Source of the DNA: an uncultured SAR86 cluster bacterium
GTDB lineage: Bacteria; Pseudomonadota; Gammaproteobacteria; Magnimaribacterales; D2472
Direction of reading: 5' to 3'
Assembly (NCBI GenBank): GCA_902626385.1
Contig: CACOEZ010000002.1
Coordinates: forward strand, 124,001-188,000
DNA: 64,000 nucleotides
Below are positions 1,419-40,843 of this stretch, piece by piece (position 1 is the stretch's first letter; every line of letters starts with the position of its first letter). The notes beneath the pieces were generated by a model that ran no database searches, was not told the origin of the DNA, and saw only the letters and a program-made list of their open reading frames with translations. The position numbers were made by a program, and so were the translations under genes.

Positions 1419-3053
1419 ATGAAAAAGATTATTCTGTTTTTTAACACTCTGCGATTTTTAAAGTGGCAGCAAATCTACTTCAGAGTAGTTCGCAAATTAA
1501 TAAAGCCAAAGATCACAGAAATATTTAATGGAGTTGATCCTAAACGCTCTGTAAATTGGAAACATATTACTCTATACGAGGATTACATAAACCACGATTT
1601 AGACGTATGTTTCCTAAATCATACTAAAAAAATTGATTTACCAACAGATTGGAACAATAAATCACTCAGCAAATTATGGGTCTACAATTTACATTATTTT
1701 GAGGATTTATTATCTTTAAATGCTAAGAAAAAAATTGAACTCCATAAAGAATTATTAGATTGTTGGATTGATCAAAATCCAGTTGGATTTGGCAATGGTT
1801 GGGAGCCTTATACTTTATCTTTGCGGATTGTTAATATCTTAAAAGCATGGCTTGGTGGTTTTGAATTAAATAAAAAACAATTTAACAGTACCTTTGCACA
1901 GGCGAGCTATTTATCAAATAACCTTGAAAAGCATTTATTAGGAAATCATTATTTTGTAAATCTAAAGGCGTTGCTATTTGCAGGTACTATTTTTGGAAAT
2001 AATCGCTGGCAAGGTATTGCTGAAGATGGGTTAATTGCTGAAATTCCTGAGCAAATTCTTGATGATGGCTCCAATTTTGAACTGAGTCCTATGTATCACT
2101 CATTAATATTGGTAGACATGTTGGATATTTTAAATTTAAGCAGAGCTTTTTCATCAAATATTTCTAGTGAGTTAACGTCTATGGTAGAAGAGCGCATTCC
2201 TAAAATGCTAGCATTTATGGAATCGATGGCTCATCCAGATGGCGGCGTGTCTTTTTTTAATGATTCTGTGGACGGAATTGCTCCAGCAAAAGATAAAATT
2301 GAAATTTATGCCAAAGAATTAGGATTTAAAATAAACCGTATTGATTCTAAAAAGTATCAAATAATCGATAATGCCAGCAGCGGTTATATTTGCTCAACAG
2401 CTGATAATAACAAGCTAATCTTTGATGCATCAGCAGTTGGGCCTGATTATATTCCAGGCCATGCGCACGCAGATACGCTATCGTTTGAATTATCAATTGG
2501 TAAACAGAGGGTATTCGTGAATTCAGGTACGTCTGAATATGGCTTAAGTTCATTACGACATAATCAAAGAAAAACAAGATCTCATAATACAGTTGAGGTG
2601 GATGGGAAAGATTCATCTCAGGTTTGGAGTAGTTTTAGAGTTGCTAATCGAGCAAAGATTATCGCTAGAAATGCCCAGCTAAGCCAAGATCACTGCATTG
2701 TATTGAATTCTTCGCATAATGGTTATAAGTCAATATTCGGTGGGTGTATTCATTCTCGAAAATTGACTTTCGGCAAAAACAGTCTTTGTGTATCTGACAC
2801 ACTTCAAGGAAAATTTAAATATGCAATATCTCGTTTTTATTTTCATCCCGATTCAATCGTAAATCTTGAGGATAATTTATTGAGTGTTAAAGGATCAAAG
2901 TTTTTTTTGCAAAGTAATCTTTCAGGCTTATCAGCATCACTTGTTAATTCATATTGGTATTATGAGTTTGGCTCAGAAAAGCCTAATAAAATGTTAGAGT
3001 TACAATTTGATAAATCTAAGCTAGATGTTGTTTTTAAATGGTCAAAGCATTAA
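1419..3053 (+). CDS. Heparinase II/III-like family protein
   Basis: 544 aa; FGNGWEPYTLSLRIVN, GNHYFVNLKALLFAG, PGHAHADTLSFELS, SGTSEYG motifs typical of heparinase II/III-type proteins in capsule loci. Confidence 0.85.
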   Translation: MKKIILFFNTLRFLKWQQIYFRVVRKLIKPKITEIFNGVDPKRSVNWKHITLYEDYINHDLDVCFLNHTKKIDLPTDWNNKSLSKLWVYNLHYFEDLLSLNAKKKIELHKELLDCWIDQNPVGFGNGWEPYTLSLRIVNILKAWLGGFELNKKQFNSTFAQASYLSNNLEKHLLGNHYFVNLKALLFAGTIFGNNRWQGIAEDGLIAEIPEQILDDGSNFELSPMYHSLILVDMLDILNLSRAFSSNISSELTSMVEERIPKMLAFMESMAHPDGGVSFFNDSVDGIAPAKDKIEIYAKELGFKINRIDSKKYQIIDNASSGYICSTADNNKLIFDASAVGPDYIPGHAHADTLSFELSIGKQRVFVNSGTSEYGLSSLRHNQRKTRSHNTVEVDGKDSSQVWSSFRVANRAKIIARNAQLSQDHCIVLNSSHNGYKSIFGGCIHSRKLTFGKNSLCVSDTLQGKFKYAISRFYFHPDSIVNLEDNLLSVKGSKFFLQSNLSGLSASLVNSYWYYEFGSEKPNKMLELQFDKSKLDVVFKWSKH

Positions 3054-3055
3054 GT

Positions 3056-4279
3056 ATGCATATACTTTTTTTAACCGATAATTTCCCTCCTGAGGGAAAT
3101 GCTCCTGCAACAAGAACTTTTGAGCATTGCCGAGAATGGATAACTAAAGGCAATAAAGTTACAGTAATTACCTGTGCTCCAAATTTTCCTGAAGGCAAAG
3201 TATTTGAAGGTTACAAAAATAAATGGTTGTCAAAACAAAAAATTGAAGGAATTAATGTTTGGCGAGTAAAATCCTATATCACCGCTAATGAAGGTTTTAT
3301 AAAAAGAACAATTGATTTTGTTTCATTTATGATCTCTAGTCTATTTTTTGGCTTATTTACCCGAAAAGTAGACGTCGTAATTGGAACATCACCTCAGTTC
3401 TTCACGGTTATCTCAGCGTGGGCTCTGGCTAAATTAAAGCGCACTCCTTTTGTATTTGAACTGCGTGATATTTGGCCTGCTTCAATAGAGACTGTTGGGG
3501 TAATAAAAGGAAGTCGGATAATAACAATCTTCGAAAAAATAGAATTATTTTTATATCACCAAGCTGATTTAATCATAACAGTAACAAATAGCTTTAAAAC
3601 AGAACTTCAAAATAGAGGTGTTTCAGCAGGAAAGATCAAACCTGTTCTTAATGGCGTAGATTTGTTTAGACATAGTCCTATTAAAGAAAAAGATGAAAGT
3701 CTTGCAAATAAGTATGGGTTAAAAAATAAATTTGTTATAGGGTATGTAGGTACTCATGGTTTAGCTCACGGTTTAGACAATGTTATCGAAGCAGCTAGGC
3801 TGATTGTGAAAGATGATAATATCAGAATTATTCTTGTTGGAGGAGGAGCGGATCGGCCAAGACTTGAAAAAATACTTCGCGAAGATCCTTTGAAGAATCT
3901 TGTTATGATACCGCTACAGACAAAAGATCAAATGCCAAAATTTTGGAGCTTGTGCGACATTTCTTTGGTACATTTGAAAGACGCACCTTTATTCAAAACT
4001 GTAATTCCTTCAAAAATATTTGAGTCTATGGCAATGGGTCTGCCAATTCTAATATCCTTACCGAAAGGAGAAGCTACAGACATCATAAAGGAACATAAGG
4101 CCGGTGTTAATGTTCTACCTGGAAATCCAGAGCAATTAAGCAAGAAATTTTTGGAATTAGCTAATGATAAAGAGTTGGTTAAAACTTTATCTAGCCAGAG
4201 TTTAAATGCTGCTCGAAATTACGATAGAAAAAAGTTAGCATTGGAGATGCTAAATCATATAAAGGAAGTTGTAAGTTGA
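3056..4279 (+). CDS. Glycosyltransferase family 4 (WbuB-like)
   Basis: GT-B fold motifs (DNFPPEGNAPATRTFEH, ELRDIWPASIE, IPSKIFESMAMGLPIL). ATG at 3056 (MHILFLTDNF) fits better than the track start at 3038, which overlaps the previous gene. Confidence 0.85.
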   Translation: MHILFLTDNFPPEGNAPATRTFEHCREWITKGNKVTVITCAPNFPEGKVFEGYKNKWLSKQKIEGINVWRVKSYITANEGFIKRTIDFVSFMISSLFFGLFTRKVDVVIGTSPQFFTVISAWALAKLKRTPFVFELRDIWPASIETVGVIKGSRIITIFEKIELFLYHQADLIITVTNSFKTELQNRGVSAGKIKPVLNGVDLFRHSPIKEKDESLANKYGLKNKFVIGYVGTHGLAHGLDNVIEAARLIVKDDNIRIILVGGGADRPRLEKILREDPLKNLVMIPLQTKDQMPKFWSLCDISLVHLKDAPLFKTVIPSKIFESMAMGLPILISLPKGEATDIIKEHKAGVNVLPGNPEQLSKKFLELANDKELVKTLSSQSLNAARNYDRKKLALEMLNHIKEVVS

Positions 4280-35749: not shown

Positions 35750-37318
35750 TTGATGAAAGAGTTATCTGTTAATAGTAAAAACATAGATACAATCTTAGTT
35801 TTAGACTTTGGCTCTCAATATACCCAATTAATTGCGCGACGAGTAAGAGAGAGCAATGTTTACTCAGAAATACTCCCTTGGGACATTGACGAAAGTAAAA
35901 TTAAACTTTTAAATCCAAAAGGAATTATCCTTTCGGGCGGACCAAATTCTGTAACAGAAGCATATACTCCTAGAATTCCTCAGATTATTTTTGATCTCTC
36001 AGTGCCTATATTGGGTATCTGTTATGGCATGCAAACTCTTGCTGAGCAGATGGGAGGACAAGTAATATCAGCTGATAATAAGGAGTTTGGACACTCAGAA
36101 TTAAATATTCATGTTGAATCAGCCATGCTGAAAGGTATTGATAAAAGACTAAATGTGTGGATGAGTCATGGAGATCAAGTCCAAGACTTACCAGATAATT
36201 TTAAACTAATAGCCTCTACATCTACTGCTCCAATTGCGGTTATGGAGCATGAGTCTCTGCCTATATACGCATTGCAATTTCATCCCGAGGTTACTCATAC
36301 AGATAAAGGCCAAAATATTATTGAAAACTTTATATTAGATATTTGCAATGCTGATACTGCATGGAAAATGGATCATCTAATTAATAAAAGAATAGAAGAA
36401 ATAAAAGAAAAAGTTAAAGATGGAAAAGTTTTACTGGGATTATCTGGGGGAGTTGATTCGTCTGTAACTGCTGCTTTATTACACAAAGCAATTGGAAAAA
36501 AATTAACCTGTGTTTTTGTAAATAATGGATTGCTTAGAAAAGGAGAAGTTGAAGAGGTAATGCAAACTTTCAAAGAAAATATGAACTTAAACGTTATTAA
36601 ATCTGAGAGTGAGGAAATTTTTCTTAGACATCTTAAAAATATTGACGATCCAGAGCAAAAAAGAAAGATAATCGGGAGGACTTTTATTGATATTTTTGAT
36701 GCTGAAGCTATTAAGTTGAAGGAAATTAAATTCCTTGCACAAGGAACTATTTATCCAGATGTAATAGAATCGTCCGGAAGTGAGTCTAACGAGGCAAGAG
36801 TAATCAAATCGCATCACAATGTTGGAGGACTGCCGGAAGAGATGGAACTTGATTTGGTTGAACCGCTCAGAGATCTTTTCAAAGACGAAGTCAGAAAAAT
36901 GGGTGTTGAGCTCGGCATTCCAAAAGAAATGCTTGAAAGACATCCTTTTCCAGGACCAGGACTTGGAGTAAGGATAATAGGTGAGATAACTAAAGAAAAA
37001 ACAAAAATACTACAACATGCAGATCATATTTTTATTGAAGAATTAATCAAAGCAGATTTGTATGACAAGGTTAGCCAAGCTTTTGCTGTACTATTACCTG
37101 TTAAGTCGGTTGGTGTTGTTGGTGATGAAAGAAGATATGCTGAAGTTATAGGTTTACGCGCAGTTGAAACGGTAGATTTTATGACTGCAAGATGGGCCCA
37201 TCTTCCTTATGAGTTTTTAGAACATGTCTCTAACAGGATAGTAAACGAAATAGAGCAGGTGAGCAGAGTTGTATATGATATTTCAAGCAAACCTCCAGCA
37301 ACTATTGAGTGGGAATAG
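35750..37318 (+). CDS. guaA: GMP synthase (glutamine-hydrolysing)
   Basis: [50 protein letters not shown], ends KPPATIEWE. Confidence 0.98.
37301..37317. repeat. Left direct repeat actattgagtgggaata (att-like), within the guaA 3' end
   Basis: Exact 17-bp match to 39559..39575. Confidence 0.9.
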
Positions 37319-37356
37319 TTACATTGGCTCAAACCCTTATTCCTAAGCTGTTTCCC

Positions 37357-37417
37357 TTGTTGTAAAGTTGTTGTAAAAACGCATTCCTTCGCTTTTGTTG
37401 TAAACATTATTGTAAAG
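37357..37417 (+). repeat. Cluster of four TT(G/A)TTGTAAA(N) motifs, left flank
   Basis: Copies starting at 37357, 37368, 37395 and 37407. Confidence 0.8.
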
Positions 37418-37477
37418 TTTTGCTATTACTGCACTTCATAAGAAATAATATAATTTATTTAAGGTTAAAATCTAAAT

Positions 37478-39364
37478 ATGAAATACAGAGCAGAAATTGA
37501 TGGCTTAAGAGCATTGGCAGTATTGCCTGTTATTTTCTTTCATGCTGGTTTCGAGTTTTTCAACGGAGGGTTTGTTGGAGTTGACATTTTCTTTGTTATA
37601 AGTGGGTACTTAATTACAACCATTATTATTTCTGAGATGGCTGAGGACAACTTCAGCATCGTTAATTTTTATGAACGTCGTGCTCGTAGGATTCTACCAG
37701 CCTTATTTTTTGTTATGGCTGCCTGTTTGCCCTTTGCTTGGCTGTGGTTTTTGCCTAGTGACTTAAAAGACTTTGGTCAAAGTTTGGTTGCCGTGTCAAT
37801 ATTTTCTTCTAACATTCTTTTTTGGATAGAAGGTGGTTACTTCGGAACAGCTACTGAACTAAAACCTTTAATTCATACATGGAGTTTGGCAGTTGAAGAA
37901 CAGTACTACATACTTTTTCCAATTTTCTTAATGCTCACTTGGAAGCTGGGTATTAAATGGATATTAATTTTATTATCGATAATTTTTCTGATTAGTTTAG
38001 GAGTAGCTGAATGGGGTGCTTACAATTCTCCATCTGGCGCTTTCTTCTTACTACCAACAAGGGGTTGGGAAATACTTGTTGGTGTATTTGCTGCTTTTTA
38101 CCTTAATTATAATACTCACTTAAAATCTCATACTATAAACCAAGTATTGAGTTTGCTAGGTTTTGGAATGATCAGTTATTCAATTATCGCTTTTAATGAA
38201 ACAACTCCTTTTCCGAGTTTATATACTTTGATACCTACAATTGGAACAGGGTTATTAATTTTATATGCTGTTCCAAAAACTTATGCTCACAAATTACTAA
38301 GCATGAAATTTATTGTTGGGATCGGGCTTATTTCATATAGTACTTACCTTTGGCATCAACCCTTATTGGCGTTTACGAAGTATAGAGTTTTGGGAGAGCC
38401 TTCTGACCTCAATCTTATTATTTTATGCGCTGCCTCATTAGTGATAGCTTGGTTTAGTTGGAAGTTTGTTGAGATGCCTTTTAGATCAAAAACGAAAGTT
38501 AGTAGAAGATCTATTTTTAAATTTGCATTAATTTTTACTCTTTTCTTTTCGGTCACTGGACTTTGGTTACATAATAATAATGGGGCCTTAGAGTATTATC
38601 CTAAAGAAAAGCAAAAAATATTAGTAAATTTTATTAATCCTTCAGCCTATGTAAACAAAAGGCATAAACAAATCAGACTTTTAGAGTTCTCTAAAAGTAA
38701 TGATAAAAATGATATTTTAATAATTGGAGACAGTCATTCAGAAGATTTAGTTAATGCTGTTTTTGAAGCAGGCTTGAATAATGATATGGAATTTTCTTCA
38801 TATTATATTCCAGTAGGATGTGGCGTCTTATTTGTAAGAGATAAAAAGGACAGGGAGGCCACTAACTTAAATTGTCAAAGAGAGGACGGTTCTTTTTTTA
38901 ATAATGATCTGCAAATACAAATGTCTTTGGCTGATGAAGTATGGATCATTTCAAGTTGGACACAAAGAGATCTAATTTACATGTCTAAATCCATAGAGAA
39001 TATTAAGACTATAAATAAAAATATTAAATTATTTGGCACTAAAAACTTTGGAACCCCAAGCTCCAAATGGTACAACACAGTGGACATAGATGATTGGTCT
39101 TCTGCAATATTTGATGATTCTGACAAAAGCAAATATGCAACAATCTCAAAAGTTAATAATGATTTGAGTAATATATCTAAATCTTTAAGTGTTGAATTTT
39201 TTAATACACAGCATCTTATATGCAGAGGTGAAGCTTTTTGTTCTAACTATATTGATGGAAATATCATCTCATATGATGGAACTCATCTAACAAAACATGG
39301 TGCAAAAATATTAGGTTTATCTCTAAAGAACGAGCTTAATAAAAATAATAGGTTAAAAGACTGA
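37478..39364 (+). CDS. Acyltransferase-3 / SGNH fusion (OafA/OatA-type O-acyltransferase)
   Basis: YRAEIDGLRALAVLPVIFFHAG, FFVISGYLIT, HTWSLAVEEQYY, C-terminal SGNH motifs IIGDSHSED and YDGTHLTKHGAKIL. Confidence 0.93.
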   Translation: MKYRAEIDGLRALAVLPVIFFHAGFEFFNGGFVGVDIFFVISGYLITTIIISEMAEDNFSIVNFYERRARRILPALFFVMAACLPFAWLWFLPSDLKDFGQSLVAVSIFSSNILFWIEGGYFGTATELKPLIHTWSLAVEEQYYILFPIFLMLTWKLGIKWILILLSIIFLISLGVAEWGAYNSPSGAFFLLPTRGWEILVGVFAAFYLNYNTHLKSHTINQVLSLLGFGMISYSIIAFNETTPFPSLYTLIPTIGTGLLILYAVPKTYAHKLLSMKFIVGIGLISYSTYLWHQPLLAFTKYRVLGEPSDLNLIILCAASLVIAWFSWKFVEMPFRSKTKVSRRSIFKFALIFTLFFSVTGLWLHNNNGALEYYPKEKQKILVNFINPSAYVNKRHKQIRLLEFSKSNDKNDILIIGDSHSEDLVNAVFEAGLNNDMEFSSYYIPVGCGVLFVRDKKDREATNLNCQREDGSFFNNDLQIQMSLADEVWIISSWTQRDLIYMSKSIENIKTINKNIKLFGTKNFGTPSSKWYNTVDIDDWSSAIFDDSDKSKYATISKVNNDLSNISKSLSVEFFNTQHLICRGEAFCSNYIDGNIISYDGTHLTKHGAKILGLSLKNELNKNNRLKD

Positions 39365-39400
39365 AATCTTTAAGAATGATAGATTTAGGAGGCATTAGCG

Positions 39401-39552
39401 TTGTAAACTTTACAACAACAGAAATACTAAACTACTGATAATAGAAGGATATTAAGATAGTGAGACACACAGAAACAAACCACAAATGTTGTAAAAATGT
39501 TCTAAAGACACATTTGCCCCTCGCAAACCTTTTCTGCATACGGGATTGTAAA
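39401..39552. repeat. Cluster of TTGTAAA motifs, right flank, including the palindrome TTGTAAACTTTACAA
   Basis: Palindrome 39401..39415 plus direct copies at 39489 and 39546. Confidence 0.75.
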
Positions 39553-39558
39553 ACTGCG

Positions 39559-39575
39559 ACTATTGAGTGGGAATA
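39559..39575. repeat. Right direct repeat actattgagtgggaata (att-like), intergenic
   Basis: Exact copy of the guaA 3' end, followed by aa (giving a TAA stop in the equivalent frame). Confidence 0.9.
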
Positions 39576-39592
39576 AATTAAAAATATAAAAA

Positions 39593-40843
39593 ATGAAGTT
39601 TTTTGGTTGGAGAATGGTATTTACGGGTCTTGCTGTTGAATTCACTGTTATAGGTTTCCTCTTTTATAGCTTTCCTGTTTTTTGGCCTTACCTAATATCA
39701 GAACTTGGTATGACCGAAAGTCAGCTTGGCATGATCACCGCATTTTATTTTATACCTGTTTCAATTTTGGCTATTTTTATAGGCCGCGGTCTTGATAAGT
39801 ATTCTGTCAAAAACTTTATGATGATAGGATCCATATTTTATGCTGTAGGACTATTTTCTTTAAGTTTCATAAATTCTTATTGGTCGCTTGTGATGATTTA
39901 TCTGACTATTCTTGCCTTGGGATCAATTATGATGGGAAATTTAGCTGTAGCTAAATTAATATCAAATTGGTTCGATAAAAACGCTGGAAGAGCGTTGGGT
40001 ATTGCAGCAGTCGGCATTTCATTTTCAGGAGTTGTGCTTCCATTGGTTGTAGATCCTCTTCTTGACTTAGTGGGCTGGAGAAATGTTTATGTAATCTTTG
40101 CTTCTGTTGTTCTTTTTATCATCTTACCTCTTATTTTTTTTGTTGTGATCGATGATCCAAAGACCGTCAACCAAGTTAAAGATGGTATTAAAAGAGATAA
40201 TGAAGAAGAATCCTCACCACAAGAAATGACTTCAAAAGATCTTTTATCTAAAAAAGTATTTTGGATAATTTCTTTAGCGTTTGCTTTCCAATTTCTTTCC
40301 ATGATGGGTGTAATTGCTTTCTTACCTATTCATGCAAGTAAAATGGGGTTAGATGAAATATGGAATCTTTTAGGTTTTCCGGTTAAACAATATGTTTTTG
40401 CATATGCCTTAGCTGCTTTCGGAGGAGTCTTAGGAAAATTAATATTTGGATATCTTATGGATCTTATGAAGGCAGCATATCCTTCAATGATAGCAATGTC
40501 TCTTCAAGCAATCGGAATCTTTGGGTTTACTTATTTTAATGAACCAATTATCTTTTTTTTAAGCGCATTGATATTTGGTTTGGGTTATGGAGCTGCAACG
40601 CCACTTATGACTGCGTGTTATCTGAGAGCATTTGGTTCACATAATCTTGGGAAAGCCAGAGGTATATCATCTCCAATTGTTGCTCCGCTTCAACCAATCG
40701 GAATTCTTATAACAAGCATTCTCATAGGTTTTCAAGATACTTACTTTTTAGCTTTCAATATTATGGGATGTTTTGCTCTATTAGCATTAGTTTTGGCAAG
40801 CCAAATACAGGAGCCTCATAAATCTGAGATGTTTACCGATTGA
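39593..40843 (+). CDS. MFS transporter
   Basis: About 12 TM segments; FIGRGLDKYSVKNFM, GNLAVAKLISNWFDKNAGRALG. Confidence 0.85.
   Translation: MKFFGWRMVFTGLAVEFTVIGFLFYSFPVFWPYLISELGMTESQLGMITAFYFIPVSILAIFIGRGLDKYSVKNFMMIGSIFYAVGLFSLSFINSYWSLVMIYLTILALGSIMMGNLAVAKLISNWFDKNAGRALGIAAVGISFSGVVLPLVVDPLLDLVGWRNVYVIFASVVLFIILPLIFFVVIDDPKTVNQVKDGIKRDNEEESSPQEMTSKDLLSKKVFWIISLAFAFQFLSMMGVIAFLPIHASKMGLDEIWNLLGFPVKQYVFAYALAAFGGVLGKLIFGYLMDLMKAAYPSMIAMSLQAIGIFGFTYFNEPIIFFLSALIFGLGYGAATPLMTACYLRAFGSHNLGKARGISSPIVAPLQPIGILITSILIGFQDTYFLAFNIMGCFALLALVLASQIQEPHKSEMFTD

Follow-up and report, generated by a model that had tools for sequence, protein, structure and literature searches.

Islands inserted at the 3′ end of guaA are known from GIsul2, whose published core is GAGTGGGA and whose integrase excises the integrase-less CR2-sul2 and inserts it at guaA (PMC9376610). 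The locus described here lies in a 64,000-nucleotide stretch of DNA from an uncultured SAR86 cluster bacterium, analysed as a whole and hereafter called the window. It and its relatives resemble GIsul2/CR2-sul2 in their guaA 3′-end insertion, in the core, in having an integrase-less unit between att repeats and in that more than two att sites may follow in a row; GIsul2, however, is large, carries resistance genes and encodes its integrase in cis, whereas the SAR86 islands are mostly single-gene units with a median size of 1.2 kb and no integrase nearby. A second relevant class are the CIMEs, cis-mobilizable elements that keep attL and attR, have lost their integration and transfer genes and are described as decayed ICEs or IMEs (PMC5704250). 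Retention of attL and attR, absence of integration and transfer genes and a tandem arrangement at one site are common to both, but the guaA units are tiny, mostly single-gene and numerous, with many arm-motif classes in a conserved geometry.

The architecture also recalls lambda-type att sites, where a core is flanked by several arm sites and the integrase has an N-terminal arm-binding domain; the guaA units differ in that their arm sequences vary at one chromosomal site and that several of them have a palindromic double arm about 167 bp from the core end. Tycheposons use tRNA genes as sites, measure 4–200 kb and carry a recombinase (PMC10872708). They too are cargo islands of streamlined aquatic bacteria with tyrosine recombinase chemistry, whereas the units described here use guaA and mostly lack a recombinase; the window island has neither a tRNA gene as its site nor a recombinase of its own. 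The microcin H47 island is a small E. coli island that recombines at direct repeats with proteins from the rest of the cell (PMC3191183); it differs in its site and its size of 13 kb, and its abstract mentions no arm arrays. Non-autonomous att-flanked islands, tandem accretion and guaA islands are already known. New, as far as we searched, is that SAR86 has a large set of mostly single-gene units at one site whose many arm motifs follow one geometry; full-text searches of open-licence papers returned no account of guaA islands in this group.

We conclude that the TTGTAAA arrays on both sides of the window island are very probably arm-type sites for a lambda-like tyrosine integrase whose target is the 3′ end of guaA, and that the island is non-autonomous and may be mobilised in trans. 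Sequence comparison shows a precise insertion relative to the empty site and an end in common with an integrase-bearing element. It also shows that the arm motifs of a unit match between its left and right ends and that the arm layout stays fixed across unrelated cargo. The features of the locus are as follows.

35750–37318, forward strand: guaA (GMP synthase), an open reading frame with Pfam domains GATase and GMP_synt_C, whose 3′ end is the attachment site
37301–37317, forward strand: attL core at the end of guaA, ACTATTGAGTGGGAATA, which includes GAGTGGGA; an exact direct repeat of 39559–39575
37332–37442, forward strand: conserved left-end module with all four left arm sites, matching one end of an integrase-bearing SAR92 element at 89% identity over 111 bp
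37357–37366, forward strand: putative left arm site 1, TTGTTGTAAA, aligned in seven elements
37368–37377, forward strand: putative left arm site 2, TTGTTGTAAA, 11 bp past site 1
37395–37404, forward strand: putative left arm site 3, TTGTTGTAAA
37407–37416, forward strand: putative left arm site 4, TTATTGTAAA, 12 bp past site 3
37478–39364, forward strand: cargo gene for a 628-aa acyltransferase-3 plus SGNH protein of the surface-polysaccharide O-acyltransferase type
39369–39575, forward strand: conserved right-end module, common to islands with unrelated cargo
39400–39416, no strand: putative palindromic double arm site, GTTGTAAACTTTACAAC, about 167 bp ahead of the core end
39489–39495, forward strand: putative right arm site at -86, TTGTAAA
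39500–39506, forward strand: putative right arm site at -75, degenerate, TTCTAAA, exactly 11 bp past 39489
39546–39552, forward strand: putative right arm site at -29, TTGTAAA, 6 bp ahead of the 17-bp repeat
39559–39575, forward strand: attR core, the second copy of the guaA 3′ end, ACTATTGAGTGGGAATA
39593–40843, forward strand: MFS transporter gene outside the island, directly behind guaA in empty-site relatives

The island occupies 37318–39575 (2.26 kb). When its flanks are joined at the repeat, they align unbroken to three loci where this MFS gene comes directly after guaA (L033, L050 and L158), with 88% identity over 1,551 bp in the empty-site locus L050, which indicates that 2.26 kb were inserted at the 3′ end of guaA. 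The island thus has the hallmarks of guaA islands: 3′-end insertion, the core GAGTGGGA, direct repeats and alignment to an empty site. It has attL and attR and no integrase, which is the make-up of a CIME. In the ORF list and by Pfam, the acyltransferase is its only large ORF, and neither an integrase adjoining guaA nor a transposase was found in it. The acyltransferase matches PF01757 (6.7e-33), PF19040 (6.5e-15) and PHROG 6705, ‘O-antigen acetylase’ (1.3e-153), and PADLOC gave no defence assignment for this cargo. Acyltransferases at L051, L170 and L032 are 65–69% identical to it over about 430–450 residues, and the one at L254 is the sole one to align over the full length (52%); faster divergence or exchange of the SGNH part may explain this. 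Of these window-type acyltransferases, that of L032 follows TTTGACAAA arms, whereas that of L254 stands immediately after guaA with no arms.

Every motif copy listed in the original prediction is present. The four left copies start at 37357, 37368, 37395 and 37407, the first pair in the direct 11-bp tandem that had been claimed and the second pair 12 bp apart; the palindrome placed at 39401–39415 is GTTGTAAACTTTACAAC and spans 39400–39416; and the right copies lie at 39489 and 39546, the latter 6 bp before the repeat. The TTCTAAA at 39500–39506 had been overlooked. The palindrome was also considered as a terminator, and this was rejected because no T-run follows it in the sequence. In the 387 bp of flank, TTGTAAA occurs eight times on the two strands, whereas 20,000 first-order Markov shuffles averaged 0.38 copies and never exceeded 5; the rough estimate made earlier was well under one copy of a given heptamer per about 390 bp. 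Nor is the motif dense in ordinary DNA of the window, the densest other 390-bp stretch having two copies. A genome-wide count, proposed in the original prediction, gave 34 copies of TTRTTGTAAA in 1.09 Mb, five of them within these two flanks. The copies in the flanks are not due to chance. A shuffle test open to any heptamer is weaker, since some heptamer occurs at least eight times in about 3% of shuffles, likely because of A/T runs. For this reason, the strong evidence is conservation in other genomes and not the motif count.

Such conservation is seen at both ends of homologous islands, the left array in integrase-bearing genomes and the right set in islands with unrelated cargo. A 425-aa tyrosine integrase lies directly behind guaA in SAR86 (L263), UBA7415 (L264) and SAR92 (L265), the proteins being 85–100% identical. 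The left end of the window island is 89–91% identical to these integrase-bearing ends over 85–104 bp, with the arms at the same places. L263 lies in genome G178, the SAR86 record JADHSF010000012.1, of the same order as the window, and in GTDB genomes of SAR92 and UBA7415 integrases 85–86% identical to that of G178 stand behind guaA with the same TTGTAAA array. The reading as arm-type recombinase sites, put forward from the letters of the window, is thus supported by three genomes in which the same array, identically spaced, separates guaA from a tyrosine integrase. When 203 genomes of the order were searched at the protein level, strong relatives of the integrase appeared only in G178, G073 and G060, all directly behind guaA and each preceded by a tandem arm motif of its own (TTGTTGTAAA, CATACAAACTT and AACTAAG, respectively). 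By a home-made profile, an integrase stands behind guaA in two of 133 loci of the order (L225 and L237). A similar relation holds for ends with ATACAAACTT arms, which precede an integrase in the Cellvibrionales genome L268 and are 91–98% identical on the integrase-less SAR86 islands L203, L222, L241, L223 and L042.

The structure model of the integrase, of moderate confidence (pTM 0.51), has an N-terminal domain of beta-strands and a helix, and its best PDB match is full-length lambda integrase (1z1b). N-terminal strands with a helix have been described for arm-binding domains (PMC8138268). The model therefore suggests an arm-binding type of N-terminal domain for this integrase, which is found in relatives and not in the genome of the window: a protein search of that genome, 72% complete, detected no relative of it. 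The three integrase contigs of the TTGTAAA type (L263, L264 and L265) all stop 314–623 bp past the integrase and thus lack the right end; these stops may mark a variable or repeated region. With contigs of this arm type breaking off so close to the integrase, and with mobile DNA tending to drop out of metagenome bins, helpers may be less rare than they seem.

Relatives of the integrase were found neither in viral contigs nor in phages, tblastn gave no match in a plasmid collection at 1e-5, and a class-wide DNA search for the left end in 369 genomes produced no further convincing host. A viral origin of the arms was considered and rejected: an exact search of IMG/VR for the TTGTAAA arm pattern returned no contig, and the one contig for ATACAAACTT was unconvincing and without a convincing guaA core. 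The guaA core alone is present in 53 viral contigs, many of which are guaA ends of other bacteria followed by other integrases.

Arm sequences vary between units while the offsets stay fixed, with pairs at +44/+55, +82/+94 and -86/-75 and a single site at -29. Right ends of the TTGTAAA type have offsets of -86, -75 and -29 from the core end, and other islands, whose cargo is unrelated, have the right-hand arms at these offsets too; the right-end module of the window is 73% identical over 211 bp to that of L229 and 79% over 175 bp to that of the second unit of L241. Of 55 distinct right ends, 19 have tandem repeats spaced at exactly lag 11, as do 12 of the 78 left ends (0–3 at other lags), and nine left ends have the second left pair at lag 12. 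A palindrome of the unit's own arm motif is located at -164 to -169 in the window and several other units, and at -155 in the second unit of L241. The left and right ends of one unit share 7.18 7-mers, against 3.19 after permutation (SD 0.29), a value which the partial relatedness of units should raise rather than lower. Tests for recurrence of the right-arm motif in a unit's own far-right or left region were positive but modest, less strong than this comparison of the two ends. With arms flanking the core to left and right at constant distances, the units have the layout of a lambda-type att site. Many units have no recognisable arms, and not all of them need therefore be movable.

Of the 141 loci analysed (133 of the order and eight from the integrase search), 67 contain one or more units, and in 23 two or more units stand in tandem. 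The 133 loci of the order hold 99 att-delimited units with a median of 1.19 kb; exactly one ORF of at least 90 aa is present in 64 of them, and an integrase, by profile, in one, the first unit of L237. At L225, the other integrase locus, the sequence stops short of a second repeat. Units are bounded by duplicated guaA DNA accompanied by arm sites. Direct att repeats, detected with a tolerance of two mismatches, number 96 in forward and none in reverse orientation in 969 kb, and the zero count on the reverse strand bounds the false positives. Among the matches listed for the 127 cargo ORFs are restriction-modification enzymes, HNH nucleases, flavodoxin-like reductases, FkbM methyltransferases and acyltransferases, and some of these ORFs (e.g., a flavodoxin-like reductase behind guaA) may be resident genes between repeats. 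Some loci deserve separate mention. The units of L163 (119 bp) and L057 (294 bp) are very short, with little or no space for a normal gene, and at G160:C2:288652-289409 (L201) a tandem duplication covers about 120 codons of the C-terminal part of guaA, much more than the usual core. A TTGAAAGTCATAAGTTCATGGCATAAT-like stretch about 112 bp after guaA precedes different genes at L039, L045, L047, L052, L054 and L060; it is common, at the same offset, to units of the TGACACA and TTTGACAAA classes and may serve as a promoter or bind a protein instead of marking a coding start.

One case bears on how units without an integrase may arise. The second unit of L241 (genome G072), 2570–3705 after guaA, is 96% identical over 221 bp to the G178 element as far as the start codon of the integrase. 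There follows ATG GAG GAG TGA, which resembles the integrase start joined to its last two codons and stop, and then a methyltransferase gene. Both TTGTAAA-type ends are kept, and the integrase gene appears to have been deleted. The window island keeps no such remnant of an integrase gene.

On these grounds we propose that the window holds a non-autonomous 2.26-kb island that retains attL, attR and arms, with one cargo gene and no integrase. The integrase of a helper would bind core and arms, excise the island in trans as a circle and insert it at another guaA, and successive insertions would stack in tandem; the cargo may alter the cell surface. We infer mobilisation in trans because the GIsul2 integrase recombines the integrase-less CR2-sul2 at the same core, and by this analogy helper integrases would be the simplest mechanism.

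Possible, but in our judgement unlikely, is that the arms are real but belong to a relic: the island would descend from an integrase-bearing element, would have lost the integrase and would now be immobile, a decayed CIME. A relic would look similar to a mobile island, and the degenerate arm at 39500 (-75), a genome (72% complete) in which no integrase was found, and the second unit of L241, with its integrase seemingly deleted down to the start and the last two codons, would all fit; so would L051 and L170, SAR86 loci with TTGTAAA ends and acyltransferase cargo that show no matching right repeat past the cargo. However, despite differing cargo the two end modules are conserved over lengths of 111 and about 207 bp, the same ends recur across genera and orders with different cargo, and most units are compact and single-gene, not decaying large islands.

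Operators typically consist of short motifs clustered close to a gene, often with a palindrome, and we consider it very improbable that a regulator of the cargo gene or of guaA accounts for the motifs seen here: the same arrays stand ahead of an acyltransferase, a methyltransferase and an integrase, the motifs lie at both ends and match within a unit, and their offsets are fixed relative to the recombination core. Still less probable is movement by the chromosomal XerC/XerD without a dedicated integrase. Nearly all relatives do carry only two Phage_integrase proteins, both of XerC/XerD size, yet the arm motifs vary between units although the hosts share XerC/D, and dedicated integrases with the same arms exist directly behind guaA. 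Repeated motifs at both ends of a segment would also be expected of transposon ends bound by a transposase, an option included in the original prediction. This part of it is not supported, and it is the least probable of these alternatives: the island has no transposase, long direct repeats of the guaA 3′ end bound it and such repeats always share one orientation (96 forward, 0 reverse), and the associated enzyme is a tyrosine integrase.

Returning to arm-type sites and mobilisation in trans, we put forward, as a tentative idea that may well need revision, that guaA in SAR86 is an integron-like capture platform on which recombinase-less single-gene cassettes stack, the arm motif being a code that chooses the helper integrase shuttled between marine proteobacterial orders. 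The series of integrase arm motifs in constant geometry is a natural one and should be useful for studying co-evolution of arm domains and arm sites. SAR86 bacteria are abundant in the surface ocean and have small genomes. Mostly integrase-less, single-gene elements at one site would give them a route to gain surface-sugar, restriction-modification and metabolic genes, and the units suggest how bacteria with such small genomes may swap single genes.
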